NCBI RefSeq assembly: GCF_900187265.1
Contig: NZ_LT906450.1
Location: forward strand, 1,355,444-1,419,443
Direction: 5' to 3'
Length of the DNA stretch: 64,000 nt
From: Rhodococcus rhodochrous
GTDB taxonomy: Bacteria; Actinomycetota; Actinomycetes; Mycobacteriales; Mycobacteriaceae
The notes under the pieces were generated by a model, which saw nothing but the letters and a program-made list of their open reading frames with translations, had not been told where the DNA came from and ran no database searches. The position numbers and the translations under genes were made by a program. Positions within the stretch are counted from its first letter, which is position 1, and every line of letters starts with the position of its first letter. Of this stretch, positions 5,861 to 23,261 are shown one piece after another.

Positions 5861-5882
5861 GTGGTTCTCCTCGGGGAAGGGA

Positions 5883-5932
5883 GGGCTCGCGACTACGAGC
5901 CCCATGACTGACGGGAAAGCTGACGGGAAAGC
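5883..5932 (-). other. intercistronic hairpin and 12-bp tandem duplication
   Basis: Between the permease stop and the BMP lipoprotein start lie a perfect hairpin (GGGCTCG at 5883-5889 with CGAGCCC at 5896-5902) and two back-to-back copies of TGACGGGAAAGC (5909-5920, 5921-5932). Hairpins before binding-protein genes often protect or partly insulate that part of the transcript, allowing more binding protein than permease. That role is inferred. Confidence 0.5.
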
Positions 5933-6894: not shown

Positions 6895-7964
6895 CGGGCA
6901 CGCTCCACGATTCGGTTGGCGAGCAGCACCGTCAGGATCATCACTGCCTGGACGACGGTGCCGATGGACGCGGGGATCTCCTGGGTACGCTGCACCGCCT
7001 GGCTGCCGAGGGTCAGCCCGGAAACCAGTGCCGCTGCGAGCACGATGCCGAACGGATTGCGACGCCCGAGCAGTGCCACCACGATCGCGGTGAACCCGAT
7101 CCCGGAGGAGATCGCCAGCGACAGTCGGAACTCGCTGCCCAGCAACATGATCGCTCCGGCGATACCGCCGAGTGCACCGCTGATCAGAGCGGAGGTGACC
7201 ACGGTGCGGGCGACGGAGATGCCGTTTGCCTCGGCGACGCTCGGGCTCTCACCGACGATCTGCGACGCGAAACCGAATCGGGTCGAACGCATGAGCCACC
7301 ACACCAGCGGCACCGCCGCGATCGCGACGAACACACCGATGTGGATGCGGGTGCCGGGAATCGTCGCGAGTGCGGCCCAGTCGGGGATGCGCTCGGACTC
7401 GGGGGTGAAACCGTTGGGGTTGGCGAGGGGTTTGCGCACCGCCCACGCCAATGTGTAGAAGACGAGGTAGTTGAGCATGAGCGACGAGATGATCTCGTTG
7501 ACCCCGAGCCGCGCCTTCAGCACGCCCGAGATGCCGCCGATGCACGCACCCGCGGCCGCGGCGGTGACGGCGACGATCGGGATCGCGATCCAGCTCGTCC
7601 CCAGCGGCATGCTCAGCACCACGGCCGTCGCGGTGATCGCGCCGACGTCGTAATGGCCCTGCGCGCCGATGGTGATGAAACCGGTGCGGTACGCGATCGC
7701 GTAGCCGAGACCCATGAGGACGAGCGGTGTCATGCCCGTGAGCAGGCGACCGAGCTGCGTGTCGCCGCCGAGTGCAGCGTCGAGCATTGTCGCGTAGGCC
7801 TGCCCCGGATCACCGCCCGCGAGGACGATGAGGATCCCACCCGCCGCGAGGCCGACGGCGACGGCGAGCAACGGCACCCCGATGGTGGTCGCGAGGCCCC
7901 GGATCCGCGACGCGGTGGGCGGCTCGGGTGGCGTCGTCACCGGTGGGCTGAGTGTGGCGGTCAT
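6891..7964 (-). CDS. nucleoside ABC transporter permease (first)
   Basis: A 357-aa BPD_transp_2 permease (YufP/NupB type), longer at its N-terminus than its partner. It has the GAQGHYDVGAI segment after the third membrane span and the coupling loop VGESPSVAEANGIS. The ATG at 7962-7964 is chosen because it overlaps the ATPase stop as ATGA and starts just before the first membrane span; a reading from 8159 lies inside the ATPase gene. Translationally coupled at both ends. Confidence 0.9.
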   Translation of the reverse strand: MTATLSPPVTTPPEPPTASRIRGLATTIGVPLLAVAVGLAAGGILIVLAGGDPGQAYATMLDAALGGDTQLGRLLTGMTPLVLMGLGYAIAYRTGFITIGAQGHYDVGAITATAVVLSMPLGTSWIAIPIVAVTAAAAGACIGGISGVLKARLGVNEIISSLMLNYLVFYTLAWAVRKPLANPNGFTPESERIPDWAALATIPGTRIHIGVFVAIAAVPLVWWLMRSTRFGFASQIVGESPSVAEANGISVARTVVTSALISGALGGIAGAIMLLGSEFRLSLAISSGIGFTAIVVALLGRRNPFGIVLAAALVSGLTLGSQAVQRTQEIPASIGTVVQAVMILTVLLANRIVERAR

Positions 7965-9532
7965 GCTGCGGCCTCCTGGAATCCGCCCATGGCCGAGCCG
8001 AGGGCTTCGCGGTCGAACGGGCCTTCGTCGAACTCGGCGACGATCCGTCCGCGGTAGAGCACGACGATCCGGTCGGCGAGGCTGCAGATCTCGTCGAGAT
8101 CGGACGAGATGAGCAGGATCGCGGCGCCCCGGGAGCGGTGTTCGACGAGGGTGTCCCACACGAATTCGGTGGCACCGATGTCGAGACCGCGGGTGGGCTG
8201 GGCGACGACGAGGACGTCGGGCTCACCGTCGAGGACCCGACCGAGCACCACGCGCTGCGCGTGCCCACCGGACAGGGTGCCGGCGAGCGTGCGCGGGCTC
8301 TGGGCCTTGACCGACAGTGCGGCGATGATGCGCTCGGCGCGTTCACGGACGGCGGTCCGCGACAGGCGTCCCCAGCGACGCGCGAGCGGGGGATCGGTGT
8401 AGCTGTCGATCGCGAGATTGGTATCGATCCCCAGCGACTTGATCAGTCCTCGGGTGTAGCGGTCGGCGGGGACGATGCCGACACCGGCCTCGCGCATCGC
8501 GCGGGGGGACGAGGCGTCGATCTCGCGTTCGGCGACGACGACCGCGCCGGTGGAGTCGGGGGCGAGCCCGGACAGGACGTCCTCGAGGGCGGACTGACCG
8601 TTGCCCTCGACTCCGGCGACGGCGACGAGCTGCCCGGATGCGACCCGGAGGGTCACGTCGTGCAACTGATCGGGGACGGACACGCCGACCAGTTCGAGCT
8701 TCCGGCTCCCGGCCGGTTCGGTGGCCGCGCGGCGGATGCCCAGTCCGACCTCGCGGCCGACCATGTCGCGGGCGAGTTCGGCGGTGGTGACGCTCTCGGC
8801 GCCGTCTCCGCGGATGGGGCGTTCGGCGACGAGCTGCCCTCCTCGCAGCACACCGACCCGGTCGGCGGCCTCGAGGACCTCCTCCAGATGGTGGGTGATG
8901 AGCACGATCCCGACGCCGCGTTCGGTGGCGAGTCGGCGGACCTGTGCGAGCAGTGAATGCACCTCGGCCGGGGCGAGATTCGCGGTCGGTTCGTCGAGCA
9001 GCAGGTAACCGGCGCCCAGGTGCAGGGCACGCAGGATCTCGACGCGCTGCTGCTCGCCGACCGACAGGTTCTCCACGCGTGCGGTGGGGTCGCAGGCGAG
9101 ACCGGTGTCTTCGGCGAGGGCGGCGATCTCAGCCTCTGCGCGCCGCAGACGTTTCCGGCCGATCACTCCGGGGGACCGGCCGAGCAGGAAGTTCTCGGCG
9201 ACCGTCATGCTCGGCACGAGCATGAAGTGCTGGTGGACCATGGCGATCCGCTCCCGGCCTCCGTCGGTGAGCGACTTTCCGTCCACCGCAATGGAACCGG
9301 AGCCCGGCGGGAGCAACCCGGTGAGGATGCGCATCAGGGTCGACTTGCCGGCGCCGTTCTCGCCGAGCAGCGCGTAGACCTCGCCGGGCCGCACATGCAA
9401 CGACACGTCGCGCAGGACGGTGTTCTCACCGAAGGACCGGTGGATACCGCGCATCACGACGCCCTCGGCGGGGACCGATTCTGCCACTCCCGCAGCGGTG
9501 GTGATGCTCGCGGTCGAAGTTGCTGTCACCAT
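7961..9532 (-). CDS. nucleoside ABC transporter ATP-binding protein (two ABC domains)
   Basis: A 523-aa tandem ABC ATPase of the sugar/nucleoside importer type (RbsA/YufO/NupA). Domain 1 (about 25-260) has Walker A GENGAGKST and the signature LSVGEQQRVEI. Domain 2 (about 275-520) has a degenerate Walker A (VEGNGQSA), as is normal in this family, and LSGGHAQRV with the D-loop GLDIGATE. The ATG at 9532 has GGAAGG about 9 nt upstream. It is the first gene of the importer operon and is divergent from the XRE-cupin regulator, which is the likely controller. Confidence 0.92.
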   Translation of the reverse strand: MVTATSTASITTAAGVAESVPAEGVVMRGIHRSFGENTVLRDVSLHVRPGEVYALLGENGAGKSTLMRILTGLLPPGSGSIAVDGKSLTDGGRERIAMVHQHFMLVPSMTVAENFLLGRSPGVIGRKRLRRAEAEIAALAEDTGLACDPTARVENLSVGEQQRVEILRALHLGAGYLLLDEPTANLAPAEVHSLLAQVRRLATERGVGIVLITHHLEEVLEAADRVGVLRGGQLVAERPIRGDGAESVTTAELARDMVGREVGLGIRRAATEPAGSRKLELVGVSVPDQLHDVTLRVASGQLVAVAGVEGNGQSALEDVLSGLAPDSTGAVVVAEREIDASSPRAMREAGVGIVPADRYTRGLIKSLGIDTNLAIDSYTDPPLARRWGRLSRTAVRERAERIIAALSVKAQSPRTLAGTLSGGHAQRVVLGRVLDGEPDVLVVAQPTRGLDIGATEFVWDTLVEHRSRGAAILLISSDLDEICSLADRIVVLYRGRIVAEFDEGPFDREALGSAMGGFQEAAA

Positions 9533-10333: not shown

Positions 10334-11326
10334 ATGGAAGCTCTGCCTCTCATCGATCTGCGTCCGCTGCGCGACGGGAGCGACCCGCACGCCGTCGCCG
10401 GCGCGCTCGACGCCGCGTGTACCGACCTCGGGTTCTTCGTCGTCACCGGTCACGGACTCGACCCCGACCTCCGCGCGGCGACGATGGAGCAGGCGCGGCG
10501 CTTCTTCGCGCTGCCCTTCGAGGAGAAGATGGAGATCGCCATCGCGAAATCCCCCTGCCACAGCGGATATGTGCCGCCGAAGACCGAAACACTCGACCCC
10601 ACCGTCGGAGCCGACGGCAAGGAGGCCTTCGACATCACCACCGACCGTGCGGCCGATCATCCGGAGGTGATCGCGGGTACGCCGCTGCACGGTCCGGCGC
10701 AGTGGCCGGCCTCGCTGATGCCCGACTTCAAGAGTGTCGCCGACGAGTACGCGAAGGCGTGCCTGGACATCAACGCCCACCTCATGCGCGGTCTCGCACT
10801 CGCTCTCGGCCTCGACGCCGACGCCTTCGTGTCGATGTTCACCGACCCGCTCGGGTCGCTCCGTATGCTGCACTACCCACCCGTTCCCGTCGGCGATACC
10901 GCACTCGGCATCGCGCCCCACACCGACTACGGCTCGTTGACACTGCTCGCCCAGGACGACATCGGTGGGCTGCAGGTCGCCGCGCGAGGTGGCGGGTGGA
11001 TCGACGTGGTGACCCCGCCCGACGCGCTGATCGTCAACCTCGGCGACATGATCGCCCGGTGGACCAACCACCGCTACGTCTCCACCCGTCATCGTGTGCT
11101 GAATCCCACGCACGGGCACCGTTATTCGCTGCCCTATTTCGTCACCCCGGACTACAACGCCGTGATCGAGGCGATCCCGACCTGTGTCGAACCGGGCGCG
11201 GAGCCGATCCACCCACCGATCGGGGCCGGCGAGTACCTGCAATCGCGGTTCGAAGCGACGCACGCGTACCTCGGGGCCCCGACCGACGGTCAGATCGACA
11301 AGCACACCGTCTTGGTCTCCAAGTAG
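10334..11326 (+). CDS. 2-oxoglutarate/Fe(II)-dependent dioxygenase, isopenicillin N synthase family (second)
   Basis: A 330-aa enzyme with a DIOX_N domain (about 5-110, CTDLGFFVVTGHGLD) and a 2OG-Fe(II) domain. Iron ligands are HTD in APHTDYGS and a distal His in TRHRVLNP; HRYSLPYF gives the 2OG-binding Arg-x-Ser. AGGAG precedes the ATG at 10334. It is a paralogue, not a duplicate, of the 2952-4007 gene. It runs into the convergent aldehyde dehydrogenase gene with a 37-bp 3' overlap. An alcohol or aldehyde produced by hydroxylation could feed the GMC and ALDH enzymes next door; this is inference. Confidence 0.85.
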   Translation: MEALPLIDLRPLRDGSDPHAVAGALDAACTDLGFFVVTGHGLDPDLRAATMEQARRFFALPFEEKMEIAIAKSPCHSGYVPPKTETLDPTVGADGKEAFDITTDRAADHPEVIAGTPLHGPAQWPASLMPDFKSVADEYAKACLDINAHLMRGLALALGLDADAFVSMFTDPLGSLRMLHYPPVPVGDTALGIAPHTDYGSLTLLAQDDIGGLQVAARGGGWIDVVTPPDALIVNLGDMIARWTNHRYVSTRHRVLNPTHGHRYSLPYFVTPDYNAVIEAIPTCVEPGAEPIHPPIGAGEYLQSRFEATHAYLGAPTDGQIDKHTVLVSK

Positions 11327-12783
11327 TTCTCCAGTCCGGCGGCGCCGTTCTCGTAACCCCAGCCGGACTGCTTGTGGCCACCCTTGACCAGTTCGGGGGA
11401 GAAGTAGGAGTGGCAGTTGATCCACACGGTGCCGGCGCGGATCGCGTCGGCCACCCTGTGGGCCCGCGACAGATCCGACGTCCACACGCTCGCCGCGAGA
11501 CCGTAGTCGGTGTCGTTGGCCCAGGTGATCACTTCGTCGGGGTCGTCGAAGGGGGTCACCGTCACGACCGGGCCGAAGATCTCCTCGCGCATCATCGGCA
11601 GATCCGGGGCGGCGTCGACCACCACGGTGGGCTCGTAGAAGCTGCCGGTCTCGCCCACCATACGACCACCCGTCACGACCGTGGCCCCCGCGCGGACTCC
11701 GTCGTCGACGTAGGACGCCACCGTGTCGCGGTGCCGCAGGCTCACCAGCGGACCCAGATCGGTGTCGTCGTCGAGTCCGTGGCCGAGCCGCAGGGTGTCC
11801 GCAGCAGCGGCGAGACCGTCGACGACCTGCTCGTAGACGCGCCGCTCGGCGTAGATCCGGGAACCGGCGACGCACACCTGCCCGCAGTTGGCGAAGATGC
11901 CGCGCGCGAGGCCGGGGATCGTCAGCGGCAGGTCGGTGTCGCCGAAGACGACCGCCGGGGACTTGCCGCCGAGTTCGAGGGTGAGCCGCGAGAGATTGTG
12001 CGCCCCGGCCGAGGCGACGAGCTTCTTCCCGACCTCCGTGGACCCGGTGAACGTCACCTTGTCGACTCCCGCGTGCTCGGCCAGCATGCGACCGACCTCA
12101 CCGCCACCGGTGAGGATGTTGACGACCCCGTCGGGGATGCCGCTCTCCGCGAGCAGTTCACCGAACCGCAGGGCGGTCAGCGAGGTGTCCTCGGCCGGCT
12201 TGAGCACGACGGTGCATCCCGCGGCGAGTGCCGGCGCCAGTTTCATCGCCGCCATGAGCAGCGGTGAGTTCCACGGCACGATCGCGGCGACCACACCGAC
12301 CGGTTCGCGCACGGAGTGCGCGACGACCTTCCGTCCCGGCGGCGCGTAGGTGATCGACGGTGTGACGGTGGTCCCCGTGATCTTTGTGGCCCATCCCGCG
12401 TAGTAGCGGAACTGCTCCGCCGCGGAGGGGATCTCGGCGAATCGGGAGGTCGCCCAGGACTTGCCCTGGTCGAGGGTCTCGAGTTCGGCGAGTTCGTCGG
12501 CGTGGGCGTCGATGGCCTCGGCGATCCGCCACAGCACGCGGGCGCGGGCCGCGGGCGTGCACGAGGCCCACTCGTTCTGCAGAGCGTGGCGCGCGGCGGC
12601 GATCGCGGTGTCCACCTCGCCGGCTCCGGCCGATGCGAGTGTCGCGAGCGGCACGCCCGTGGCCGGGTCGCTCGTCTCGAAGGGCTCGCCGGAACCGGGG
12701 ATCCATCGGCCGTCGACGAGCAGTGATTTCGTGCCGTCGCGGAGGAAATCGGCACAGTACCGGGGGAGGGCTGCGGTGATCAC
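11290..12783 (-). CDS. aldehyde dehydrogenase (NAD(P)+)
   Basis: A 497-aa class 1/2-like ALDH of full length. It has the cofactor/oxyanion Asn motif VPWNSPLLMA, TFTGSTEVGKK, catalytic Glu in LELGGKSP and catalytic Cys in NCGQVCVAGSR, and ends in the canonical GLENYLETKTV. The GTG start overlaps the stop of the preceding oxygenase gene (GTGA at 12780-12783). It is the last gene of the split-Rieske operon and oxidises an aldehyde to an acid there. Betaine-aldehyde-like and phenylacetaldehyde-like ALDHs share these motifs, so the substrate stays open. Confidence 0.92.
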   Translation of the reverse strand: MITAALPRYCADFLRDGTKSLLVDGRWIPGSGEPFETSDPATGVPLATLASAGAGEVDTAIAAARHALQNEWASCTPAARARVLWRIAEAIDAHADELAELETLDQGKSWATSRFAEIPSAAEQFRYYAGWATKITGTTVTPSITYAPPGRKVVAHSVREPVGVVAAIVPWNSPLLMAAMKLAPALAAGCTVVLKPAEDTSLTALRFGELLAESGIPDGVVNILTGGGEVGRMLAEHAGVDKVTFTGSTEVGKKLVASAGAHNLSRLTLELGGKSPAVVFGDTDLPLTIPGLARGIFANCGQVCVAGSRIYAERRVYEQVVDGLAAAADTLRLGHGLDDDTDLGPLVSLRHRDTVASYVDDGVRAGATVVTGGRMVGETGSFYEPTVVVDAAPDLPMMREEIFGPVVTVTPFDDPDEVITWANDTDYGLAASVWTSDLSRAHRVADAIRAGTVWINCHSYFSPELVKGGHKQSGWGYENGAAGLENYLETKTVCLSI

Positions 12784-13667
12784 GTGTCTGCTCCTCGGGT
12801 ATCGACGGGACGGAAAGGCAGGGCGCCCCAACGCAGTCCTTTGGCCTTGAGCCAGCGCCGGTAGGTGACCGACGAAGCGTCGGCGCGGGTGGGGATCTCT
12901 TCGCGCGGATCGAGCGGCAACAGGAGCGGACGCTGGTTCTCGACGATGATGCGGTCCTGCAGGAAGATCACCTGCTCGAACTGCACCAGCTCGGTGTGCG
13001 TGGAATCCGGGTCGACGAGGTACATCACCGGCTGTGCGCGGCACAGGGTTTCGTCGATCGGCTGGATGAACAGGGCGATCGCGTCGAGACGGGTGGGATC
13101 GGAGGGCGAGACCCGGTAGAGTATCACCTGATACGGATTCGGGACGCGGTAGGTCAGCTGTGCGAACGTGCCCTCGGAGGCCGCGGAGATCTGCGGCTGG
13201 AAGAACGTGCAGTCGGTGGCCCACACCTCGTCGGTCTCCCGGCGGATCTCCCACTTGTAGCGTGCGACCTCCGTGGCGGCCTCGCCGCCGAGGATGCCGG
13301 TGTGCACGAACGGGAAGTGCGCCATGTCGAGGAAGTTCTCGACCACCCGGCCGGGGGACGACCGGAGCGTGACCCACCCGCACGGCACGTAGCGCCGGTC
13401 GGGTTCGTCGGCCTCGTCGATGGGGAAGACGTCCTTCTCGGGGGTGCCGAGCGTGGTCCACACGAACCCGTATCGGCGTTGCACGGGAAGCACGGCGTCG
13501 CCGTCGTGCACCGTCGGTTCGCCGTCGGCGTCGACGCTGCACTCGATGTCGGCGCCGAGCAGGCGGGTGCGCACGACGGCCTCGGCGACCTCCTGTTCGG
13601 AACAGACCGGATACCACTGGTTCAGCACGACCGGGTCGTCGCAGCGTGTGGTGATGCTGGTCGTCAC
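12780..13667 (-). CDS. Rieske-type oxygenase catalytic subunit lacking its Rieske domain (NdmC-like)
   Basis: A 295-aa protein with the C-terminal half of a VanA/NdmA-type oxygenase. The mononuclear iron site is intact: ENFLDMAHFPFVH gives the bridging Asp114 and ligands His117 and His122, and Asp238 in LQDRIIVENQRP is the likely third ligand. The N-terminus starts like the family (VVLNQWYPVCSEQEV) but jumps from about residue 57 straight to RYGFVWTTLG. The CxH...CxxH cluster loop, roughly 55-60 residues, is absent, so it cannot hold a Rieske cluster. In Pseudomonas NdmC has the same loss and gets electrons from a Rieske domain on another protein; here the free Rieske protein at 16956-17591 is the candidate. 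The GTG start follows GAGGAG and overlaps the GMC stop. Confidence 0.8.
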   Translation of the reverse strand: MTTSITTRCDDPVVLNQWYPVCSEQEVAEAVVRTRLLGADIECSVDADGEPTVHDGDAVLPVQRRYGFVWTTLGTPEKDVFPIDEADEPDRRYVPCGWVTLRSSPGRVVENFLDMAHFPFVHTGILGGEAATEVARYKWEIRRETDEVWATDCTFFQPQISAASEGTFAQLTYRVPNPYQVILYRVSPSDPTRLDAIALFIQPIDETLCRAQPVMYLVDPDSTHTELVQFEQVIFLQDRIIVENQRPLLLPLDPREEIPTRADASSVTYRRWLKAKGLRWGALPFRPVDTRGADT

Positions 13668-15229
13668 GACAAGCTCCTCTCGGTTCCGGTGATCAGTGCG
13701 GCCGCGCGCTCGGCGAGGGCGATCACGGGGGCGTTGGTGTTGCACGACGGGAGCACCGGGATGACGGAGGCGTCGACGACGCGCAGTCCGTCCACGCCGT
13801 GGACGCGCAGGTCCGGGTCGACGACGGCGTCGGGTCCCACGCCCATCGCGCACGTGCCGCCCGTGTGGAAGAAGGTTGCGCAACTGGCTCGGACGAAGGC
13901 TTCGGCGTCGGCGCGGCCGAGACGACGGTCCGGTGCCGCGGGTGCCTCGACCAGATCTTGCAACGCGGAGGTCTCGGCGAGGTCGAAGATGCGGTCGAGA
14001 CCGGCGACGAGGGCGTCGAGGTCGCGGGGATCGGACAGATAGCGCGGGTCGATGATCGGCGCCGTGCCCGGATCCGCGGACCGCAGTGTCAGCTGTCCGA
14101 CGCTGTAGGAGCGCATGAGGCCCGGGGAGATCGCGAAGACGTCGCCGGTGACGTCGTAGCGTGCGGCCACCTCCGGGGTGGCGTGCGCACCCTGGACGAC
14201 GAAGGCGTGCAGGTCGGGCAGGTCCAGCGACGGGTCCGAACGCCAGTTGAGGATCGCGCCACCGCCGTTGTCGCGGGCAGGGCCGAGCGGATTGCGGGCC
14301 CGGAAGTTCACGCCCATGAGCAGAGGGTGGTCCTGGAGGTTGCGTCCGACACCGGGAAGTGCGGTGTGCACGGGGATCCCGTGCTCCTGCAGATGCTCGG
14401 GATCGCCGATACCTGAGAGCAGCAGCAGGTGCGGGCTCGAGATCGCACCGGCACAGAGCAGGACCTCGGCGTCGGCACGGACCACGGTGTCCGTGCCTCC
14501 ACTGCCGTACCGCACACCCACGCACCGGTCGCCGTCGAGCACCAAGCCCGACACCGTGACGTCGGTGCGCACGGTGAGATTGGGCCGGGTCCGCGCCGGA
14601 TCGAGATAGGCACGGGCCGTGCTGACGCGGTGCCCGTCGTCGATCGTGAGGTTCGCCAGGGAGGCGCCCTCGATGTCCGGCCCGTTGCAGTCGTCGAGCA
14701 CGGTCATGTCGAGTTCGGCTGCGGCATCGAGCAACCCGGTAGCGATGGGATGCGGGTCGGCGGGTCGGGTGATGCGCACCGGGCCTCCGGCGCCGCGGAA
14801 GGCGGTGGCGCCGCCCTCCCAGTCCTCGGCGCGGCGGAACCACGGGAGCAGCGACGCGAAGTTCCAGCCCTTCGCTCCGGCGGTCTCCCACGCGTCGTAG
14901 TCCGACGGGTGCCCGCGGTACCAGAGCATCGCGTTGAGACTGCTCGATCCGCCGAGGACCCGGCCGCGCGGGATCGGCACTGCGCGACCGTCGAGCAACG
15001 GGTTGGGCGCGTAGCTGTGTCCCCAGTCGTAGTCGCCGCCGAGCAGTCCCGCCCAGGTCGCCGGCGCGTCGATCGAGGGGAGACCGGCGTGGTCCGGTCC
15101 TGCCTCGAGGAGCAGCACGGTGGTGTCGGGATTCTCGGTCAGGCGGGCGGCGAGTACGCACCCCGCCGATCCGCCGCCGACGACGACATAGTCGAATCCG
15201 TCGGTTGTGTACACGTCAGTTGTGTTCAC
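13664..15229 (-). CDS. GMC-family FAD-dependent alcohol/choline-type oxidoreductase
   Basis: About 521 aa. The N-terminal FAD site VVVGGGSAGCVLA, the GMC signature 1 region (PRGRVLGGSSSLNAM) and signature 2 (GAISSPHLLLLSGIG) are all present. The active-site His is in FFHTGGTCAMG, and the second conserved site is NTNAPVIALAERAA. GMC enzymes oxidise alcohols to aldehydes. The start is uncertain: GTG at 15229 overlaps the previous gene by 14 bp, GTG at 15214 lies just after its stop, and neither has a clear Shine-Dalgarno sequence. In the operon it would supply an aldehyde to the ALDH two genes downstream. Confidence 0.9.
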   Translation of the reverse strand: MNTTDVYTTDGFDYVVVGGGSAGCVLAARLTENPDTTVLLLEAGPDHAGLPSIDAPATWAGLLGGDYDWGHSYAPNPLLDGRAVPIPRGRVLGGSSSLNAMLWYRGHPSDYDAWETAGAKGWNFASLLPWFRRAEDWEGGATAFRGAGGPVRITRPADPHPIATGLLDAAAELDMTVLDDCNGPDIEGASLANLTIDDGHRVSTARAYLDPARTRPNLTVRTDVTVSGLVLDGDRCVGVRYGSGGTDTVVRADAEVLLCAGAISSPHLLLLSGIGDPEHLQEHGIPVHTALPGVGRNLQDHPLLMGVNFRARNPLGPARDNGGGAILNWRSDPSLDLPDLHAFVVQGAHATPEVAARYDVTGDVFAISPGLMRSYSVGQLTLRSADPGTAPIIDPRYLSDPRDLDALVAGLDRIFDLAETSALQDLVEAPAAPDRRLGRADAEAFVRASCATFFHTGGTCAMGVGPDAVVDPDLRVHGVDGLRVVDASVIPVLPSCNTNAPVIALAERAAALITGTERSLS

Positions 15230-15839
15230 TGGGGCCCATGATGGTGATGCCCTCCGTCGCCTCCACGTGGCGAACGAAGATGTACTTGTCCTCCCGGCCG
15301 TCGCTGTGCTTGCGTTTGATGCCCGGCTGCACGACGCTCGAGACCTTCGCGACGAGCACGTACGGTTCGTCCGCGGACAACCCTGCGACACAGTGCTTGT
15401 CGAACTCCTCGAGGGTCTCCGCGGTGTAGGCCTTCTCGATTCCCGCTCCGCGGGCGATCGCGGCGATGTCGACCTTGCCCTTCGCGGTGTGGGTCGGCGG
15501 CCCACCGATGGACTGGTAGCACTCGTTGTCCCACACCACTGTGAACAGGTTGCGGGGCTGCTCGTTGGCGAGGGTCGCGAGGATGCCGAGGTTGAACAGC
15601 ATGCCGCCGTCGGTGTCGAGCGAGACGATGCGGCGGTGCGGCAGGCCCACCGCGAGACCGAACGCCTGCGGGGTCACACAGCCGAGCTGCTGCTGGAACA
15701 GGCTGGCCTCGCGCATGTGCGGGGCGGCGTTGTACCACTCGTCGACGCTCGCGCCGAGGGAGAGGATGACGAGTTCGTTCTCGAGCCTGGACGCGAGTGC
15801 CTGCATGCACTCGAATCGGGTCATGCGCATGGTGGTCAT
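15216..15839 (-). CDS. TPP-dependent decarboxylase, beta (TPP-binding) subunit, sulfopyruvate/phosphonopyruvate decarboxylase-like
   Basis: A 207-aa PP domain of the two-subunit ComDE class. The TPP/Mg motif begins SLDTDGGMLFNLG and closes about 27 residues later with DNECYQ. Together with the upstream PYR subunit it makes one active site, typically decarboxylating a 2-oxo acid (sulfopyruvate, phosphonopyruvate). ATG at 15839 overlaps the alpha stop as ATGA, so the subunits are made together. No coenzyme M or phosphonate genes are near, so the substrate is probably another 2-oxo acid. Confidence 0.8.
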   Translation of the reverse strand: MTTMRMTRFECMQALASRLENELVILSLGASVDEWYNAAPHMREASLFQQQLGCVTPQAFGLAVGLPHRRIVSLDTDGGMLFNLGILATLANEQPRNLFTVVWDNECYQSIGGPPTHTAKGKVDIAAIARGAGIEKAYTAETLEEFDKHCVAGLSADEPYVLVAKVSSVVQPGIKRKHSDGREDKYIFVRHVEATEGITIMGPSEHN

Positions 15840-16336
15840 CGGACGAGTCCTCCTCCGAGGGCGATGGCGGAATGGTGGTAGGCGGAGTAGGACCACTCGA
15901 AAGCGTCGTGGATGGCGCGTTCGATCGCGTCCTCCTCCCGCACGATGCGGTACGGGATGCGCAGTGCGTCGAGGATCGGCTCCATCGTGATGCCGTGCGG
16001 TACGGCCCACCAGTTGTTCTCGCCGAGTTCGCCGCGGTAGCTCATGAGCATGATCACCGGGATGCCGGCACCGAGGCCCATGCGGGCGAGCGGTTCGACG
16101 GAGGCACGCAGGCCGGAGTTCTCCATGATGAGCGCGGCACGCTTGCCGGACAGGAAGATTCCGCCGCAGATCGCAGCGCCCTCACCCTCGTTGGTGACCT
16201 GGATGGTGCGGATGGTGGGGTGCGCGTCGAGAGCGGGGTAGAGCTCCTTGAACAAGGAGTCGGGCAGGTAGCACACGGTGGTGACGCCGGCCTTCTCCAG
16301 GCCGCGGATCACCGCGTCGACGGTGGACTGTTGCAT
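15836..16336 (-). CDS. TPP-dependent decarboxylase, alpha (PYR) subunit
   Basis: A 166-aa PYR domain resembling ComD and the N-terminal part of phosphonopyruvate decarboxylases. VTNEGEGAAICGG carries the Glu that activates the TPP aminopyrimidine, and MENSGLRASVEPLARMG is a family-typical stretch. The ATG at 16336 follows AAAGGA. It is followed by the beta subunit with a 4-bp overlap and preceded by a 35-bp gap after the GST-like gene, the longest gap inside this operon. Confidence 0.8.
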   Translation of the reverse strand: MQQSTVDAVIRGLEKAGVTTVCYLPDSLFKELYPALDAHPTIRTIQVTNEGEGAAICGGIFLSGKRAALIMENSGLRASVEPLARMGLGAGIPVIMLMSYRGELGENNWWAVPHGITMEPILDALRIPYRIVREEDAIERAIHDAFEWSYSAYHHSAIALGGGLVR

Positions 16337-16371
16337 GTGGCGTCCTTTCGGAATGTGGGCAGTCGGAGAGA

Positions 16372-16959
16372 TCAGGGGAAGACGGGGATTCCGGGCATCT
16401 CCACGAAGTCGGGAAGCTGCTTGATGCGCCGGATCCAGCTGCGCAGGGCCGGGTAGCGGTCGTGGTCGATCCCGATGTCCCGGCTCAGGGCAGCGGCGGG
16501 GAACAGGGCGATGTCGGCGACGGTCGGCAGGTCGGCGGCCACCCACGCTTCGTTCGTCGTGCGGGAGGCGAGCAGGTCGTCGAGTGACTGCACCGCCGCG
16601 CGAGCGGCCGTGACGTCGACGGGATCCGTCGTGTACAGCGACTGTTCGCGGCAGGAGTAGAACTGCTCGAGCGGTCCGGTCGCGAAGTCGATCCAATCGT
16701 CGGACGGTGCGGCCCATGCGGTTCCGTCGGCGAGGTGGACGAGGACGTCGACCGATCCGACGAGCGTCGTCGTTCCGGTCTCGAACACCGGAAGTTCGCC
16801 GGTGGGGGTGAGCTCGCGGTAGGGCGATTCGAGGTGGGCGCCACCGGGGAACACGTCGACCGGTTGCACCCGATGGTCGACACCGAGCAGCGCCAGCGCC
16901 AGTCGCACCGAGTAGCACCGCGGGTCGAGCGGGAAGTCGTGCAGCACGGGGATGTTCAC
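16372..16959 (-). CDS. glutathione S-transferase-fold protein (NdmE-like)
   Basis: A 195-aa two-domain GST-fold protein. The N-terminal thioredoxin-like domain (1-80) has DFPLDPRCYSVRLALALLG and the cis-Pro region GELPVFE; a helical domain (90-195) has the TVADIALFPAA N-cap motif. Actinobacteria use mycothiol instead of glutathione (mshB is in this window), so a true glutathione substrate is doubtful. In the Pseudomonas N7-demethylase a GST-like subunit, NdmE, holds the oxygenase and Rieske protein together; the same structural role is the best guess. The GTG start overlaps the Rieske gene stop (GTGA). Confidence 0.78.
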   Translation of the reverse strand: MNIPVLHDFPLDPRCYSVRLALALLGVDHRVQPVDVFPGGAHLESPYRELTPTGELPVFETGTTTLVGSVDVLVHLADGTAWAAPSDDWIDFATGPLEQFYSCREQSLYTTDPVDVTAARAAVQSLDDLLASRTTNEAWVAADLPTVADIALFPAAALSRDIGIDHDRYPALRSWIRRIKQLPDFVEMPGIPVFP

Positions 16960-17591
16960 GAGGCCACCGCCTCCCGAACGGACGACACGGAGTCGCGGAG
17001 TTCGTGCAGCCGGTGGACGAGGGCGTTCACTGTTTCGGCCGGAACGATGCCGGCGGCGACGACATGCACGGCGGTGGTGTGCGCGTCGATCGTCTGGATG
17101 CCGGCGATCACGTCGGTGCCGTCAAGGGCGCCGGTGACGAGGGCACCGGTGCCCTCGAGGCCCAGGAGGGAGAGGGCGGTGTCCCGATCGCCGTCGATCC
17201 ATACCGATCGCACCGGGGTGATCGCCGTGCCGGGAACGTCGGGTGTGCCGCCGGCATCGGTGGGTGCCACCCATACGAGGCCGGCGCTCTCGATGGCCCG
17301 ATACTGCTGCGGTTTCACGGTTTTCGGTGGTTCCATCCGCGGGTGGGCGGGGACGTGCCTGCACGCGCCGGCGCCGTCGAACTGCCAACCGTGGTAGAGG
17401 CAGACGAGACGGTTCTCGCGGACGAATCCGAAGGACAGACGCATGCCGCGGTGCGGGCAACGGTCGGCCCACGCGTGCACGGTGCCGTCGGTGCCGCGCC
17501 ACAGCGCGACGGAGTCCCCGTCGACGGTGGTGCCGGTCGCGGTGCCGGGCTCGATGTCGCGGGCGAGGGCGACGGGAGTCCAGACGGTCAT
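16956..17591 (-). CDS. free-standing Rieske [2Fe-2S] protein with unknown C-terminal domain
   Basis: 211 aa. Residues 1-105 form a Rieske domain of the ring-hydroxylase alpha-subunit type, with Cys45-x-His47 (DRCPHRG) and Cys64-x2-His67 (CLYHGW), and it continues to the usual YRAIESAGLVWV end. The remaining 100 residues are not a catalytic domain and show no iron motif. It therefore looks like the Rieske module missing from the 12780-13667 oxygenase. ATG at 17591 overlaps the 84-aa gene stop (ATGA). No flavin/ferredoxin reductase of NdmD type is encoded nearby; electrons must come from elsewhere. Confidence 0.82.
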   Translation of the reverse strand: MTVWTPVALARDIEPGTATGTTVDGDSVALWRGTDGTVHAWADRCPHRGMRLSFGFVRENRLVCLYHGWQFDGAGACRHVPAHPRMEPPKTVKPQQYRAIESAGLVWVAPTDAGGTPDVPGTAITPVRSVWIDGDRDTALSLLGLEGTGALVTGALDGTDVIAGIQTIDAHTTAVHVVAAGIVPAETVNALVHRLHELRDSVSSVREAVAS

Positions 17592-17842
17592 GGGGTCGGG
17601 TTCCTCTCGGTCGAAGTGAGATCGAGGACGACGTTGGTGTCGGGGGCGAGAGCGCAGGCCGTTTCGAGGGCGTCGACGAGGTCGGGTTCGCCCTCGGTGT
17701 GCAGTTCGATGCGATGCCGGGTCGCCACGACGACGGTGGCACGTACCTGCAGCAGATCGGCGCGGGCGGCGACGAAGTGCGTCATGGCTACCGGATCGAA
17801 TCGTCCTACCAGCGTGAGGGCGGACGAGATCGTGCCGCACAT
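17588..17842 (-). CDS. conserved-operon small protein of unknown function
   Basis: An 84-aa protein without recognisable family, signal peptide or membrane segment. Sequence suggests a small alpha/beta fold (strands LLQVRATVVVATR and NVVLDLTST around a helix). Its stop overlaps the Rieske gene start, and its ATG lies one base after the stop of the leader ORF at 17844, with no Shine-Dalgarno sequence of its own, so it is probably translated by coupling. Position at the head of the split-Rieske operon suggests an accessory subunit. Confidence 0.6.
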   Translation of the reverse strand: MCGTISSALTLVGRFDPVAMTHFVAARADLLQVRATVVVATRHRIELHTEGEPDLVDALETACALAPDTNVVLDLTSTERNPTP

Positions 17843-17843
17843 G

Positions 17844-17924
17844 TCAGCAGTGGGCGCGCCGGCCGGCAGGGACGACAGTCACGACAAGGACGTGGACGGG
17901 ACTGGGCATCGGGGAACATCGCAT
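17844..17924 (-). CDS. putative 26-aa leader ORF of the split-Rieske operon
   Basis: A 26-codon ORF with an ideal GGAGG six bases before its ATG (17922-17924), the strongest ribosome-binding site in this stretch. It ends in a TGA one base before the ATG of the 84-aa gene. It contains two Cys, the last being the final residue, and a Val-rich middle. It probably loads ribosomes for the leaderless 84-aa gene, possibly with attenuation. Real translation needs proof; a second frame from the ATG at 17916-17914 also has Cys-rich coding potential. Confidence 0.4.
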   Translation of the reverse strand: MRCSPMPSPVHVLVVTVVPAGRRAHC

Positions 17925-18040
17925 GGAAACCTCCGGGACGTGGGGTGCTTCGTCTGCGACGGCCCTCGCGCCCGTCACCGGAGAGTCCTCCTCCGGAGGG
18001 GAGCTCCGGATCGTTCACCGGCCCTGGGCCGGACGGACAT

Positions 18041-18220: not shown

Positions 18221-20917
18221 TCACTGCATGAGGCGCCAGATGCGGTCGCGGGACAGGGGCAGTTCGTGCGGCCGCACCCCGATGGCGTTGCGCACGGCGT
18301 TCGCCAACGCCGGGGCGACCGGGTTGAACGGGGCCTCGCTCATCGACTTCGCGCCCATCGGCCCGAGTTCGTCGTAGGTGTCGGCGAAGTAGACCTCGGT
18401 GCGAGGGACGTCCGCGAACTGCGGAATGTGGTAGTTGCGCAGCACATCCGTCGTCACACGACCAGCGTCGTCGGTGATGATCTCCTCGTACATCGACGCA
18501 CCGAGCGCCTGCGCCGCGCCGCCTTCGATCTGCCCACGGCACTGCTCGGGGTTGAGGACGGTGCCCGCATCGGCGGCCTGGATCGAGCGGAGGATCCGCA
18601 CCTCACCGGTGCGGGTGTCGACGGCGACGCGGAAGGCCTGCACGTTGAACGACAGCGACCGCGGCAGCCCGCCGTGCCGGCCCTCGGCGCGCAACCGGCC
18701 ACCCGCGACCTCCAGCAGCTCACCGGGGGTGACGAGGCGATCGCCGCACCGCACGCCGTCGGCCTGCAGTTCGGCCTTCTCCGGGTCGGTGCCGGTCAGC
18801 TCCGCGGCGGCCTTCGCCATCCCCCGTCGCAGTTCGTGGGAGGCCGCCAAAAGGGCCTTCGATGCGACGACCGTGCCCGACGAACCGAAGGCGCCGGTGT
18901 CGTGGGTGGTGACATCGGTGTCGGACTGGTGGACGACGATCCGGTCGGGGGTGGTGCCGAGCGCGGTGGCCGCGATCTGGGTGTGGACGGTGGTGGTGCC
19001 GTTGCCGAACTCCGCCGTGCCCACCCGGGCGAGATACCGGCCGTCGGGCAGAAGTTCGATCGACGTCTCGGAGATGTGCCCGTTGGGCGGGTTGGTGGCG
19101 ATCATGGCCAGCGCCATACCCTCGCCGATCCGCCAGTGGTCACCGGTCGGCGCGGGCCGGCCGCCCGTGCGCGCCATCGCCCGTTCGGCAAGATCGAGGC
19201 ACTGGTCGAGTCCGTAGCTGCCGTACGTCAGGTCGGCGCCCTCGGGATGCGCCGCGACCAGCGGCTCTCCCGGCACGATGATGTTGCGGCGCCGGAACTC
19301 GTACGGGTCGATGCCGAGCTTGCCGGCGAGTTCGTCCATGGCCGACTCCACGGCGAAGATCACCTGGCCGAGACCGTAGCCGCGGAAGGCACCCGACGGC
19401 CGGTTGTTCGTGTACACGGATTCGGCGTCGACGCGCTTGTTCGGGCACCGGTACACCGCGATCGACTCGGTGCAGCCGTGGAACATCACCCCGGGGCTGT
19501 GGTTGCCGTAGGCGCCCGCGTCGGCCAGCACGTCGATCGCGAGGGCGGTGAGGGTTCCGTCGGCGTCGGCGGCGAGGGTGACGTCGACCCGCATGGGATG
19601 CCGGCACGGGGCAACGGTGAGCTGGTCGGAGCGGGTGAACTCCCACTGCACCGGGCGCCCCGTCCTCAGGACCGCTGCCGCGACGACGTCCTCAATCAGC
19701 ATCTCCTGCTTGGCGCCGAAGCCACCGCCCACCCGGGCCGTGTGCACACGCACCCGGTCCCGGTCGAGTCCGAAGATGTGGCACAGCTCGTCGCGCACCA
19801 GGAACGGAACCTGTGTGGAACTGCGGATGACGAGCCGCCCGGTCTCGTCGAGATGTCCGATGGCCCCGTGTGTTTCGAGATGGGTGTGCTGGACGCGGTG
19901 GGTCTGCCAGCGTCCCTGCACCACCGCTGTTGCGGAGGCGACCGCCGCGTCGACGTCGCCGCTGCTGCCGTGGATCTCGGCGACGACGTTGCGTCCGGGG
20001 TCGGCGATGCGCGCGTCGGCGGACTTGTCGGCGTGCAGCAGAGGAGCCCCCGGCTGCCGGGCCTCGTCGGGATCGAGGACGAACGGCAACTCCTCGTACT
20101 CGACGTGGATCGACGCGAGCGCCCGGTGCGCGATCGCCGGGCTCTCGGCGACCACCGCGGCGACCCGCTGGCCCCGGAAGCGCACGATCCGGTCGAACAG
20201 ATAAGTGTCGTCGGGATCGTCGTTGCGGTTCTCGTGACGGGCCGTCGAATAGGCGGTGGCGGGGGCGTCGCGGTGGTACAGCACCGCGTGGACACCGGGA
20301 AGCGCCTCGGCGGCCGAGGCATCGACGGAGACGATCCGCGCGTGGGTGTGCGGGCTGCCGAGGACGGCGATGTGCAGCAGGCCCTCGACGGTGGTGTCGA
20401 GGGTGTACGGCTCGGTGCCGGTGACGACGCGCGTCGCGGCGGGCGCGCGCTGCGAGCGGCCGCACGACGGACCGTCGACCTGTTCGACGTTGGTGCGCGA
20501 CCGCAGGGCGTCCTCGATCGAGCGGTAGCCGGTGCACCGGCACAGGTTGCCCTTCAAGCGTTTCGGCAGGTCGTCGAGATCCTCGTCGCCGAAGGTGGAC
20601 GCGGTGACGATCATGCCGGCCGTGCAGAAGCCGCACTGGAAACCGGCGGCGTCGGCGAACTGCTGCTGAACGGGATGCAGGTCGTCGGGGGTGCCCAGTC
20701 CGGCGACTGTGGTGACCTCCCGGCCCTCGACCCGCACGGCCGGGACCACACAGGAGTGGACGGGTTCGCCGTCGAGCAGGACCGAGCACGCACCGCAGTC
20801 GCCGGCGTCGCAGCCCTTCTTGACCTCGAAGTGTTCGGTCTCGCGCAGCAGGGTGCGCAGGCACTGTCCGGGCCGGGGGTCGACGTCGCGTTCGCGGCCG
20901 TTGACGGTGAGTTTCAC
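18221..20917 (-). CDS. xanthine dehydrogenase, fused FeS and molybdenum subunit
   Basis: An 898-aa fusion. Residues 1-75 are a plant-type [2Fe-2S] domain (CDAGDCGACSVLLDG), 80-150 the second [2Fe-2S] domain (CGFCTAGM and CRCTGYRS), and about 165-898 the molybdopterin-binding subunit, with RVGGGFGAKQE and SGAFRGYGLGQ cofactor segments and a C-terminal SEAPFNP containing the conserved catalytic-Glu region. It oxidises hypoxanthine/xanthine to urate. The GTG start (20915-20917) follows GGAGG and overlaps the FAD-subunit stop (GTGA). FeS and Mo parts are usually separate when FAD is separate, so this two-chain layout is less common. Confidence 0.9.
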   Translation of the reverse strand: MKLTVNGRERDVDPRPGQCLRTLLRETEHFEVKKGCDAGDCGACSVLLDGEPVHSCVVPAVRVEGREVTTVAGLGTPDDLHPVQQQFADAAGFQCGFCTAGMIVTASTFGDEDLDDLPKRLKGNLCRCTGYRSIEDALRSRTNVEQVDGPSCGRSQRAPAATRVVTGTEPYTLDTTVEGLLHIAVLGSPHTHARIVSVDASAAEALPGVHAVLYHRDAPATAYSTARHENRNDDPDDTYLFDRIVRFRGQRVAAVVAESPAIAHRALASIHVEYEELPFVLDPDEARQPGAPLLHADKSADARIADPGRNVVAEIHGSSGDVDAAVASATAVVQGRWQTHRVQHTHLETHGAIGHLDETGRLVIRSSTQVPFLVRDELCHIFGLDRDRVRVHTARVGGGFGAKQEMLIEDVVAAAVLRTGRPVQWEFTRSDQLTVAPCRHPMRVDVTLAADADGTLTALAIDVLADAGAYGNHSPGVMFHGCTESIAVYRCPNKRVDAESVYTNNRPSGAFRGYGLGQVIFAVESAMDELAGKLGIDPYEFRRRNIIVPGEPLVAAHPEGADLTYGSYGLDQCLDLAERAMARTGGRPAPTGDHWRIGEGMALAMIATNPPNGHISETSIELLPDGRYLARVGTAEFGNGTTTVHTQIAATALGTTPDRIVVHQSDTDVTTHDTGAFGSSGTVVASKALLAASHELRRGMAKAAAELTGTDPEKAELQADGVRCGDRLVTPGELLEVAGGRLRAEGRHGGLPRSLSFNVQAFRVAVDTRTGEVRILRSIQAADAGTVLNPEQCRGQIEGGAAQALGASMYEEIITDDAGRVTTDVLRNYHIPQFADVPRTEVYFADTYDELGPMGAKSMSEAPFNPVAPALANAVRNAIGVRPHELPLSRDRIWRLMQ

Positions 20918-21750
20918 GGCTGAACCTCCGTGTTCGACAGTTCGGTGCGGATCTCTTCGGCGAGAACCGCGGTGACGGCACGTCGCCAGTCGGCGGCGCC
21001 GTGCGCATCGGTGTAGTAGCTCGTCGCCGGGACGAGACGGGCCAGTGCGTCGGACAATTCCTGCGTCGACGGGACTTCCGTGAACCGCAGGAGGTAGGGG
21101 CGCACCGTCGACGCGGTGATCGACAGCGTGACACCGCCGTCGTCGTCGCGGCGGCCGATCACGACGGCTCCCGAACGCCCCAGCGGAGACAGGGCGATCT
21201 TGCGGAAGGCAGTGCGGGAGTTCAGAGCATGCAACGGGATCCGGATGCTCCGCAGGATCTCGCCGGGTGCGAGGGCGTTGGAGGCGACTCCGAGAACGAA
21301 GTCGGCCACCGGGATGCGCCGTTCGCCGCCGTCGGTCGTCCAGATCACCGCGTCGGCGTCGAGCGCGGTCGCCAGCGAGATCATGGCGCCGGCGGGGAAG
21401 GACAGGCAGATGTTGCCGCCGACCGTGGCGCGCTTCCAGATCTTCCACGACGCCAGCAGTGCCTCGGAGCACTGCCGGAACAGCGGTGCCGCAGGATGTT
21501 CCGCTTCGTCCGAGAGCGCGGCCAACCGTTCGACCGTGCAGGTCGCGGCGATCTCCAGGGCGTCGGGATGCCGGGTCACCGCGGGCCAGTCGAGACCGGA
21601 CAGATCCACGAGCCGGTGCAGATGCGGTTGCGGTTCGGAGAACAGCCAGGTGCCGCCACCGAGCGGGGCCGCGCCGTCCTCGAAGGCCAGGTCGGCGCGG
21701 TCACGGGCGATGTCGTAGGCGGTGATGCTGTGCAGATCCATTGCGTTCAC
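20914..21750 (-). CDS. xanthine dehydrogenase FAD-binding subunit
   Basis: A 278-aa CO-dehydrogenase/xanthine-dehydrogenase medium-subunit-like flavoprotein. FAD-binding motifs are PLGGGTWLF near residue 31 and ATVGGNICLSFPAG near residue 110. The C-terminal CODH_C domain is present but short. GTG at 21750 overlaps the deaminase stop (GTGA); an ATG three codons later is possible. It passes electrons from the FeS-Mo chain encoded next to NAD+ or another acceptor. Confidence 0.88.
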   Translation of the reverse strand: MNAMDLHSITAYDIARDRADLAFEDGAAPLGGGTWLFSEPQPHLHRLVDLSGLDWPAVTRHPDALEIAATCTVERLAALSDEAEHPAAPLFRQCSEALLASWKIWKRATVGGNICLSFPAGAMISLATALDADAVIWTTDGGERRIPVADFVLGVASNALAPGEILRSIRIPLHALNSRTAFRKIALSPLGRSGAVVIGRRDDDGGVTLSITASTVRPYLLRFTEVPSTQELSDALARLVPATSYYTDAHGAADWRRAVTAVLAEEIRTELSNTEVQP

Positions 21751-23120
21751 CCCGCCTTGGCGACCAGCGCGGCGTGTTCCGCCGCGACCTGCCGTGCCAC
21801 GACGTCCTCGTCGACGGTGCGGACCTCGTCGCGGACGACCACCTCACGACCGTCGATCAACAGCAGTTCGAGAGGAGGTGTGCTGCCGAGGACGAGTGCC
21901 GCGACCGGGTCGGCGATGCCGGAGTGGGCGAGGCCGTCGATCCGCCACAACGCCAGATCGGCGAGCTTGCCGGGTTCGATCGATCCGATCTCGTTCTCGC
22001 GGCCGAGGACCCGGGCACCGCCGATGGTGGCGAGTTCGAGGCTCTGCCGCACCGTCATGGCGCGGGGGCCGCTGCGGGCACGCGCGAACAGTGCGGCGTG
22101 ATGGGCCTCTTCGAGCATGCAGCACGACTCGTTGCTCGCGGCGCCGTCGACGCCGAGGCCGAGCGGCACGCCCGCGGCGTAGAGGTCGGCGGCGCGGGCG
22201 ATGCCGGCACCGAGCCGGGCGTTCGAGGTGGGGCAGTGGGCCGCACCCGTACCGGACGCGGCGAGCACACCGATGTCGCGGTCGTCGAGGTGCACGGCGT
22301 GCGCGTACCAGACGTCGGGACCGGTCCAGCCCAGCGACTCCATGTACTGCACGGGCTTGCATCCGAACTTCTCGAGGCAGAAGTCCTCCTCGTCGAGGGT
22401 CTCGGCGAGATGGGTGTGCATCCGCACCCCGAGATCGCGGGCGAGCAGCGCGGACTGTTTCAGCAGCTCTCCGGTCACCGAGAACGGTGAGCACGGCGCG
22501 AGCGCGACCCGCAGCATCGAGTCGAAGGACGGATCGTGCCAGCGGTCGACGGCCTCGCGGCTGCCTTCGAGGATCGCGTCGATGTCCTCGACGATGTGAT
22601 CGGGCGGCAGGCCCCCGGCGCTCGCACCGAGGTCCATCGATCCGCGGCAGGGATGGAATCGGATCCCGACCTCGGCGGCCGCGGCGATCTCCGCGCCGAA
22701 GACGTCACCGCCCTCGCGGGGGACGACGTAGTGGTGGTCGGTGCTGGTCGTGCAGCCGGTGCGCACCAGATGCGCGAGCGCGCCCTTGGCGGCGACGTGC
22801 ACGGCGTCGGCGTCGATGCCACCCCAGACGGGATAGAGGGTGGTGAGCCATTCGAACAGCGTGTGGTCGGCGGCGAGCCCACGCGTGATCCATTGGTACA
22901 GGTGGTGGTGGGTGTTGATCAGCCCGGGAGTGAGCACGCAACCGGTGCCGTCGACGACCTGCGCGTCGTCGTAGCCGGTCGGTTCGCCCGACCCGACCGC
23001 GACGATCCGGTTGCCGGAGACGACGACATAACCGTCGCGGTGTTCGGCGCGAGCGGCGTCCATGCTCACCACGTGTGCGCCGCGGATGACGAGCGGCCGG
23101 GTGGTGGGATGCGCGTGCAT
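21747..23120 (-). CDS. 8-oxoguanine deaminase-like amidohydrolase
   Basis: A 457-aa metal-dependent amidohydrolase (AtzB/TrzN/SsnA/guanine-deaminase superfamily). It has the metal motif NTHHHLYQW near residue 68, which is the form typical of 8-oxoguanine deaminases, then MHTHLAET, YAHAVHLDD and the metal Asp in LGVDGAASNE. Deamination of 8-oxoguanine gives urate, matching its operon with xanthine dehydrogenase. The ATG at 23118-23120 follows GAGGAG. Guanine or hydroxyatrazine-type substrates cannot be excluded from motifs alone. Confidence 0.85.
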   Translation of the reverse strand: MHAHPTTRPLVIRGAHVVSMDAARAEHRDGYVVVSGNRIVAVGSGEPTGYDDAQVVDGTGCVLTPGLINTHHHLYQWITRGLAADHTLFEWLTTLYPVWGGIDADAVHVAAKGALAHLVRTGCTTSTDHHYVVPREGGDVFGAEIAAAAEVGIRFHPCRGSMDLGASAGGLPPDHIVEDIDAILEGSREAVDRWHDPSFDSMLRVALAPCSPFSVTGELLKQSALLARDLGVRMHTHLAETLDEEDFCLEKFGCKPVQYMESLGWTGPDVWYAHAVHLDDRDIGVLAASGTGAAHCPTSNARLGAGIARAADLYAAGVPLGLGVDGAASNESCCMLEEAHHAALFARARSGPRAMTVRQSLELATIGGARVLGRENEIGSIEPGKLADLALWRIDGLAHSGIADPVAALVLGSTPPLELLLIDGREVVVRDEVRTVDEDVVARQVAAEHAALVAKAG

Positions 23121-23261
23121 AGTCGACTCCTCGGATCGTCGGGAGTCTTCAGTCAACTGCGCCGAACAGATGTACCTCTGCGGCAGCACGCACGAAACAC
23201 CTCGGAAATCCGCGGCTCGTACTGTGCGATCGTCCAAGACCGTCACCAGGAGGTGAACATC
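23121..23261. promoter_or_regulatory. divergent promoter region xdh operon / pucR
   Basis: The 141-bp region between the minus-strand deaminase-xdh operon and the plus-strand PucR gene holds an imperfect dyad at 23161-23184: outer GCCG/CGGC arms and inner CAGA/TCTG arms around a 6-bp centre. It is the best candidate for the PucR operator, serving both directions. No clear -10/-35 elements could be assigned. Confidence 0.4.

Follow-up and report, generated by a model that had tools for sequence, protein, structure and literature searches.

In Rieske oxygenases of the usual kind, the iron of a subunit receives its electrons from the Rieske cluster of a different subunit (PMC12445004). With donor and acceptor sharing one chain, inter-subunit electron transfer in these enzymes is difficult to dissect. 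In NdmCDE, the 7-methylxanthine N7-demethylase of Pseudomonas putida CBB5 and the closest described relative of the system presented here, the catalytic subunit NdmC has no Rieske domain and is accompanied by a separate donor, NdmD, and a glutathione S-transferase (GST)-like protein, NdmE, which is needed for activity. The structure of the NdmCDE complex is called unsolved in the accessible part of PMC13237722 (2026). Rhizobial ndmCDE homologues were noted by Summers et al. 2013, as relayed in the available text of a review (PMC4408171). Here we describe a related locus in a 64,000-nucleotide stretch of the 5.27 Mb genome of Rhodococcus rhodochrous (contig NZ_LT906450.1, positions 1,355,444 to 1,419,443; hereafter the window). 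An operon of this window very probably encodes an NdmCDE-type, heteromeric Rieske oxygenase, a predicted complex in which the Rieske donor is a free protein. Such a natural split allows donor and acceptor to be made, mutated and mixed separately, and could reveal the role of the GST-like protein, which is still open for NdmCDE.

A catalytic subunit and its probable Rieske donor on separate chains

The catalytic subunit (OXY) has an intact iron site and no Rieske loop. Both features had been noted in a first-pass annotation made from the sequence of the window, and its coordinates and reading frames for the operon genes are correct. The residues N111, D114, H117, H122 and D238 are present, and Pfam finds a VanA_C catalytic domain, a sub-threshold match to KshA_C and no Rieske domain. 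The columns of D114, H117 and H122 are intact in 104 of 105 aligned rows, with a gap in the remaining one, and the column of D238 is intact in all 105 (four of these rows are control oxygenases). The CxH...CxxH loop occurs in none of the 102 aligned rows of the OXY family, three of which (L068, L155 and L157) are uninformative on the loop because their N-terminus is wholly or partly missing, versus four of four full-length oxygenase controls. About 50 residues are absent from the family, with 21-25 residues present versus 70-74 in three full-length oxygenases, and OXY retains a stub of the Rieske barrel as a shrunken remnant. The nearest relatives of OXY among the best matches of the genome contig search are in Rhodococcus genomes (83-90% identity). 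A frameshift or assembly error hiding the loop, a concern raised by the annotation itself, is ruled out by the 102 rows and by independent Rhodococcus genomes.

On sequence evidence, the three core proteins are direct relatives of NdmC, of the N-terminal part of NdmD and of NdmE, as had been suggested. The reference is a plasmid of P. putida MT178 (L121), whose genes we call ndmC, ndmD (588 residues) and ndmE by order and family, the names in the record being generic. OXY is 42.7% identical to the NdmC of this plasmid over 279 residues (full length), both being Rieske-less, and 23-25% identical to its NdmA/B-like proteins. The Rieske protein shares 36% identity with the start of NdmD over 118 residues, and the GST-fold protein shares 33% with NdmE.

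The separate 211-residue Rieske protein carries a perfect loop, C45-x-H47 and C64-x-x-H67 (PF00355, E 2e-24). It is free rather than fused to a reductase, as the annotation had it: the open reading frame stops at 211 residues and the operon encodes no reductase. Compared by profile, it reaches 134 bits with an oxygenase alpha subunit versus at most 32 with the ferredoxins listed; it is neither closest to ferredoxins nor devoid of a further domain, which places it outside the Rieske-type ferredoxins. The predicted fold aligns with Rieske-oxygenase subunits over its entire length, C-terminal domain included, and in this model the C-terminal domain appears to be a shrunken catalytic domain. The protein aligns with the NdmD of S. 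meliloti at 31% identity over 241 positions. Taken separately, the C-terminal domain matches NdmD weakly among about 12 sequences searched (E 1.4e-4 in P. putida, 7e-4 in S. meliloti, 0.007 in Klebsiella and 0.16 in P. fulva). The predicted structures support an oxygenase-subunit topology in both chains. Because the Rieske fold superposes on oxygenase subunits over its whole length, the two chains resemble copies of a single subunit, each reduced where the other is kept.

Co-occurrence, partners and origin

The OXY family splits into OXY1 (the subfamily of the window), OXY2, a R. leguminosarum type and an Ndm side; subfamily lists for residue and gene counts were read off trees and are the analyst's choice. 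Eighty loci were compared as the best matches to the OXY query, of at least 585 pattern matches with at least 563 confirmed at E 1e-3. Confirmed matches at this level must include ordinary oxygenases, and the 80 loci over-represent OXY1 in Rhizobiales because they were chosen as best matches to this query. The first-pass annotation had considered that Rieske and GST genes might be missing beside orthologous oxygenases; the opposite is seen, with both genes near 75 of the 80 relatives. In the remaining five, the Rieske gene lies elsewhere in the genome (194-277 bits); genomes for this check were hand-picked, these five because the gene was absent from the fetched stretch. The co-occurrence that the annotation proposed to search for is established by separate profile searches for OXY and Rieske at E 1e-40, which return identical genome sets in two samples. 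The sets comprise 6 of 289 genomes of Alphaproteobacteria, a sample of the class of G296 centred on this known OXY carrier, and 8 of the 301 sampled from the window's own family; the genomes are related by descent and not independent. Seven Rieske genes occur in the alphaproteobacterial sample, six free and one (in G495) fused to a reductase. In five genomes (G296-G299 and G301), two catalytic subunits are encoded along with a single strong Rieske gene, and on pSymA of S. meliloti two tandem catalytic subunits stand ahead of one fused NdmD. On the plasmid NZ_CP036516.1 (L127), the Rieske gene (149175-149842) matches as two overlapping pieces, and may be broken because the pieces fall in different open frames. 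A lone OXY2-type gene near rhamnose genes on a Roseicitreum plasmid (L126, 9968-10834) is annotated as (2Fe-2S)-binding despite having no cluster motif.

The GST gene lies between the Rieske gene and the genes for a thiamine pyrophosphate (TPP) enzyme, in keeping with the annotation, and its product is the sole NdmE match in its genome. In this genome GshB finds no match and MshC is clearly present once, which makes glutathione chemistry unlikely and a structural role likelier; the protein is probably a structural scaffold. An 84-residue protein is matched in 72 of the 80 loci, partially in two of these. Subfamily gene counts cover 59 of the 66 OXY1 loci, seven shorter than 20 kb having been dropped, and 14 OXY2 loci, with score thresholds of the analyst's choice; the small protein is found in 55 of the 59 and in all 14. 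PF00708 (acylphosphatase) is found in 21 of 45 members of its family at E <=1 (best 2e-4; P0004 itself is unmatched), and comparison with acylphosphatases in the PDB gives weak matches of E 0.046 and above. The catalytic motif of acylphosphatases, with its Arg and Asn, is not seen, and the protein possibly has an acylphosphatase-like fold without catalytic activity. No match to the gene turned up in the ndmCDE-type loci L121-L125 or in the short stretches of the free-Rieske loci L153, L154, L156, L157 and L159, and no intact copy was found in L039, L040, L061, L099 and L102. As a strict marker of the free-Rieske form it was rejected, since some free-Rieske loci show no intact copy. The copy of Rhodococcus sp. 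CH91 (L039, 5924-6046) looks truncated or decayed, with the rest of the operon 84-99% identical to that of the window.

The annotation's view of a system rebuilt in an actinobacterium is not supported, as the free-Rieske form is widespread in Alphaproteobacteria and confined to those eight genomes in the own-family sample. Quick trees place the Rhodococcus rows together with a single Frankiales row, next to or within the alphaproteobacterial OXY1 rows; all else in the wider clade is alphaproteobacterial. No close OXY was found outside the window's own genome in 296 genomes of its phylum; the best match (32% identity, E 9e-21, in a 404-residue frame) is as expected of an ordinary oxygenase. The system of the window was probably imported, horizontal gain being the simplest reading. 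Fused and free donors require at least two changes on a quick tree with long branches and few outgroups.

The operon and its neighbours

The eight genes on the minus strand run in the order 84-residue protein, Rieske, GST, TPP alpha, TPP beta, a GMC-family enzyme, OXY and an aldehyde dehydrogenase (ALDH). Because the spacings are short (-4, -4, +35, -4, +1, -4 and +23 nt), they look like one tightly coupled operon (Table 1).

Table 1. Operon and neighbouring features, in positions of the window
Feature	Coordinates	Strand	Remarks
OXY1, NdmC-family Rieske-less catalytic subunit, 295 aa	12780..13667	-	Fe ligands H117, H122, D238; bridging D114; Glu231
Free Rieske subunit, 211 aa	16956..17591	-	Rieske domain 1-110 and C-terminal domain ~122-211, which superposes on part of a catalytic domain of the oxygenase kind
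NdmE-like GST-fold protein, 195 aa	16372..16959	-	Probably structural scaffold
84-aa small protein	17588..17842	-	May have an acylphosphatase-like but catalytically inactive fold; often found with the others in this clade
TPP enzyme subunit alpha, ComD/phosphonopyruvate-decarboxylase-like	15836..16336	-	Pfam, NCBIfam
TPP enzyme subunit beta, ComE-like	15216..15839	-	Pfam, NCBIfam
GMC-family flavin alcohol dehydrogenase/oxidase	13664..15214	-	Pfam, NCBIfam
Aldehyde dehydrogenase (ALDH)	11290..12756	-	Top NCBIfam score phenylacetaldehyde dehydrogenase StyD, below cut-off
2-oxoglutarate (2OG)-Fe(II) dioxygenase	10334..11326	+	38-40% identity to counterpart near ndmC/ndmD-like genes on Klebsiella and P. 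fulva plasmids
Xanthine dehydrogenase, 2Fe-2S and Mo subunits fused	18221..20908	-	Upstream neighbour
8-oxoguanine deaminase	21747..23138	-	Above NCBIfam cut-off; upstream neighbour
BMP-type ABC importer: binding protein, two permeases, ATPase	4838..9532	-	Downstream of operon

Genes for urate oxidase, hydroxyisourate hydrolase and OHCU decarboxylase follow further upstream, past the xanthine dehydrogenase and the deaminase; the dioxygenase and the importer lie on the downstream side. The xanthine dehydrogenase fusions differ, with [2Fe-2S] and Mo subunits joined in the window versus FAD and Mo subunits in the alphaproteobacterial locus L042 (10879-14058). Dioxygenases 38-42% identical to that of the window recur near NdmC-like genes of Pseudomonas, Klebsiella and Rhizobiaceae (L122 4468-5466, L123 11441-12418, L089, L092, L097 and L109). 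The TPP subunits (15216-16336) are about 78-87% identical between the window and alphaproteobacterial loci, and OXY1 (about 59-67%) and Rieske (about 35-52%) of the same operon are far less conserved. A scan of 11000-18400 for promoters and terminators gave no result. A near-perfect palindrome at 18161-18202, in the gap that separates the stop of xanthine dehydrogenase from the start of the operon, consists of two 23-nt matches on opposite strands with 0 and 2 mismatches; the terminator scan has no entry there, and the 21-nt core is found once in the genome at no more than one mismatch.

Proposed mechanism, substrate and known systems

From these parts we infer how the complex, its scaffold, its reductase and its reaction might fit together. 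OXY would hold the mononuclear iron and the substrate pocket, and the Rieske subunit would supply the [2Fe-2S] cluster that a normal oxygenase has in the same chain. The two are proposed to assemble as partners because both keep the oxygenase-subunit topology, and the Rieske protein probably docks with its His47/His67 cluster meeting Asp114 of OXY, taking the position that the adjacent subunit has in a normal trimer. The GST-fold protein, perhaps with the 84-residue protein, may scaffold or bridge this pair. Electrons would come from NADH via a reductase encoded elsewhere in the genome. By oxidation the enzyme would release a purine from its N-substituent, and this product would go on to the neighbouring deaminase, xanthine dehydrogenase and urate oxidase.

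Several observations weigh against this arrangement. No reductase gene was found in the operon, and a reductase match occurs on the stretch of one of the 80 relatives (25% identity, near a second weak Rieske match). None of 18 reductase-like matches in the own genome could be singled out; eight lie within 5 kb of a Rieske match other than that of the window, and the rest gave no ground for a choice. Plasmid L126, covered as a plasmid only, has a relative of OXY and no Rieske gene. Next to the iron site, at residues 119-130, the structure model of OXY is of low quality. Profile comparison gives no sequence link between the C-terminal domain of the Rieske protein and the catalytic domain of OXY, and the notion of a vestigial catalytic domain thus rests on predicted structure. 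The Rieske protein might also be an ordinary soluble ferredoxin serving another oxygenase, with OXY a relic or using another donor. The protein is indeed small and separate, and other Rieske proteins (19 PF00355 matches in all) and oxygenases are encoded elsewhere in the genome. Its profile affinity to oxygenases, the predicted alignment of its C-terminal domain with their subunits, the conserved iron-site columns of OXY and the exact coincidence of the two genome sets make this ferredoxin reading very unlikely.

The purine link made in the first-pass annotation is well founded, with purine genes nearby conserved across phyla. Residue 231 is Glu in 68 of 68 OXY1 rows and Gln in 33 of 34 rows of OXY2, the R. 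leguminosarum type and the Ndm side (Met in one). Its column corresponds to 282 (Asn) and 289 (Gln) of the two NdmA/B-like proteins of the P. putida plasmid; in NdmA and NdmB, N282 and Q289 respectively contact caffeine, and the PDB titles 'NdmA QL mutant' are in line with this. Residue 231 probably faces the substrate, and the switch to Glu, as read from the alignment, argues against plain 7-methylxanthine demethylation by OXY1. Among the 59 OXY1 loci, an amidohydrolase of the aminopurine-deaminase type and GMC are found in 59, both TPP subunits in 57, Rieske and GST in 56 each, xanthine dehydrogenase in 53 and ALDH in 48. The 14 OXY2 loci have Rieske and GST in all, guanine deaminase and the BMP protein in 11 each, and TPP, GMC or ALDH above threshold in none. 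Many OXY2 loci share genomes with OXY1 loci and the neighbourhoods are not fully separable; six OXY2 stretches end in a cut-off TPP alpha gene because an OXY1 cluster adjoins in the same genome. Three OXY2 loci of about 20 kb (L107, L110 and L116) have Rieske and GST with no trace of TPP, GMC or ALDH. The Glu231 switch and these counts make an N-substituted aminopurine the most likely substrate; the group that OXY1 takes off is probably not the 7-methyl of xanthine. A plain NdmCDE-like N-demethylase of 7-methylxanthine (or a 7-methylguanine derivative), with TPP, GMC and ALDH as passengers or for formaldehyde handling, would fit the shared three-part architecture, the purine neighbours and the NdmC-like sequence, and is helped by the incomplete separation of neighbourhoods and the TPP alpha starts at their edges. 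We consider it rather improbable in view of residue 231, the near-constant GMC and TPP genes of OXY1 loci versus the three OXY2 loci without them, and the lack of any formaldehyde-dehydrogenase or S-formylglutathione-hydrolase homologue among the eight operon genes (Pfam, NCBIfam). OXY might otherwise be a C-H hydroxylase acting on a purine-like heterocycle rather than an N-dealkylase, the solved structure nearest to it in both sequence and fold being the hydroxylase SxtT. This is unlikely, with the N-demethylase NdmC as the closest relative of known reaction; N-dealkylation begins with the same hydroxylation, and only the substrate differs.

The accompanying enzymes suggest a wider chemistry. 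The TPP pair resembles sulfopyruvate and phosphonopyruvate decarboxylases below the NCBIfam cut-offs for ComDE sulfopyruvate decarboxylase (alpha 103.6 versus 147.95 bits, beta 92.2 versus 221.5), and the GMC enzyme is similar to alcohol and choline oxidases. By analogy, a funnel through a purinyl-acetaldehyde would use the TPP, ALDH and GMC enzymes together. As a tentative extension, the system may represent a modular class derived from a single ancestral subunit by opposite losses in two copies, which left a catalytic half and a Rieske half that each keep a stub of the lost part, with one Rieske/GST module serving several interchangeable catalytic subunits per cell. In this extension OXY1 would cleave purines with a group larger than methyl: GMC (from an alcohol) or TPP (from a 3-substituted pyruvate) would yield the purinyl-acetaldehyde, ALDH the purinyl-acetate, and OXY1 purine and glyoxylate. 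One donor for several catalytic subunits, if true, is a natural plug-in design. Our literature search, mostly of titles and abstract starts with few subscription papers, found nothing on an NdmA residue mutant or linking Rieske enzymes to 7-methylguanine, and only a caffeine review joining Rieske, guanine deaminase, xanthine dehydrogenase and Rhizobium. The conserved operon, which spans soil, plant and marine bacterial genera, points to a purine-catabolic route undescribed in the literature searched.

Among known systems, the single-chain trimers SxtT/GxtA and NdmA/NdmB have the same iron motif, and OXY and the Rieske protein each superpose on their chains; the Rieske and catalytic domains that these enzymes hold in one chain are split in the window. 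NdmCDE and the window are alike in the Rieske-less catalytic subunit, the donor on another chain, the GST-like partner and the purine context. The same kind of cluster is reported for Sinorhizobium/Mesorhizobium in the available text of the review cited above, which leaves the free-donor form unmentioned, and the NdmD of the S. meliloti cluster is fused (588 residues), unlike the free donor of the window. The same search gave no description of an NdmC-type system with a free Rieske protein. We file the system as a new, apparently undescribed variant of NdmCDE. Its donor is a free 211-residue protein, whereas NdmD is fused to an FMN/NADH/ferredoxin ([2Fe-2S]) reductase; OXY has Glu for the Gln of NdmC at the column of NdmA N282/NdmB Q289; and the 84-residue protein and the TPP, GMC and ALDH enzymes of the operon are additions found in the window and not in NdmCDE.

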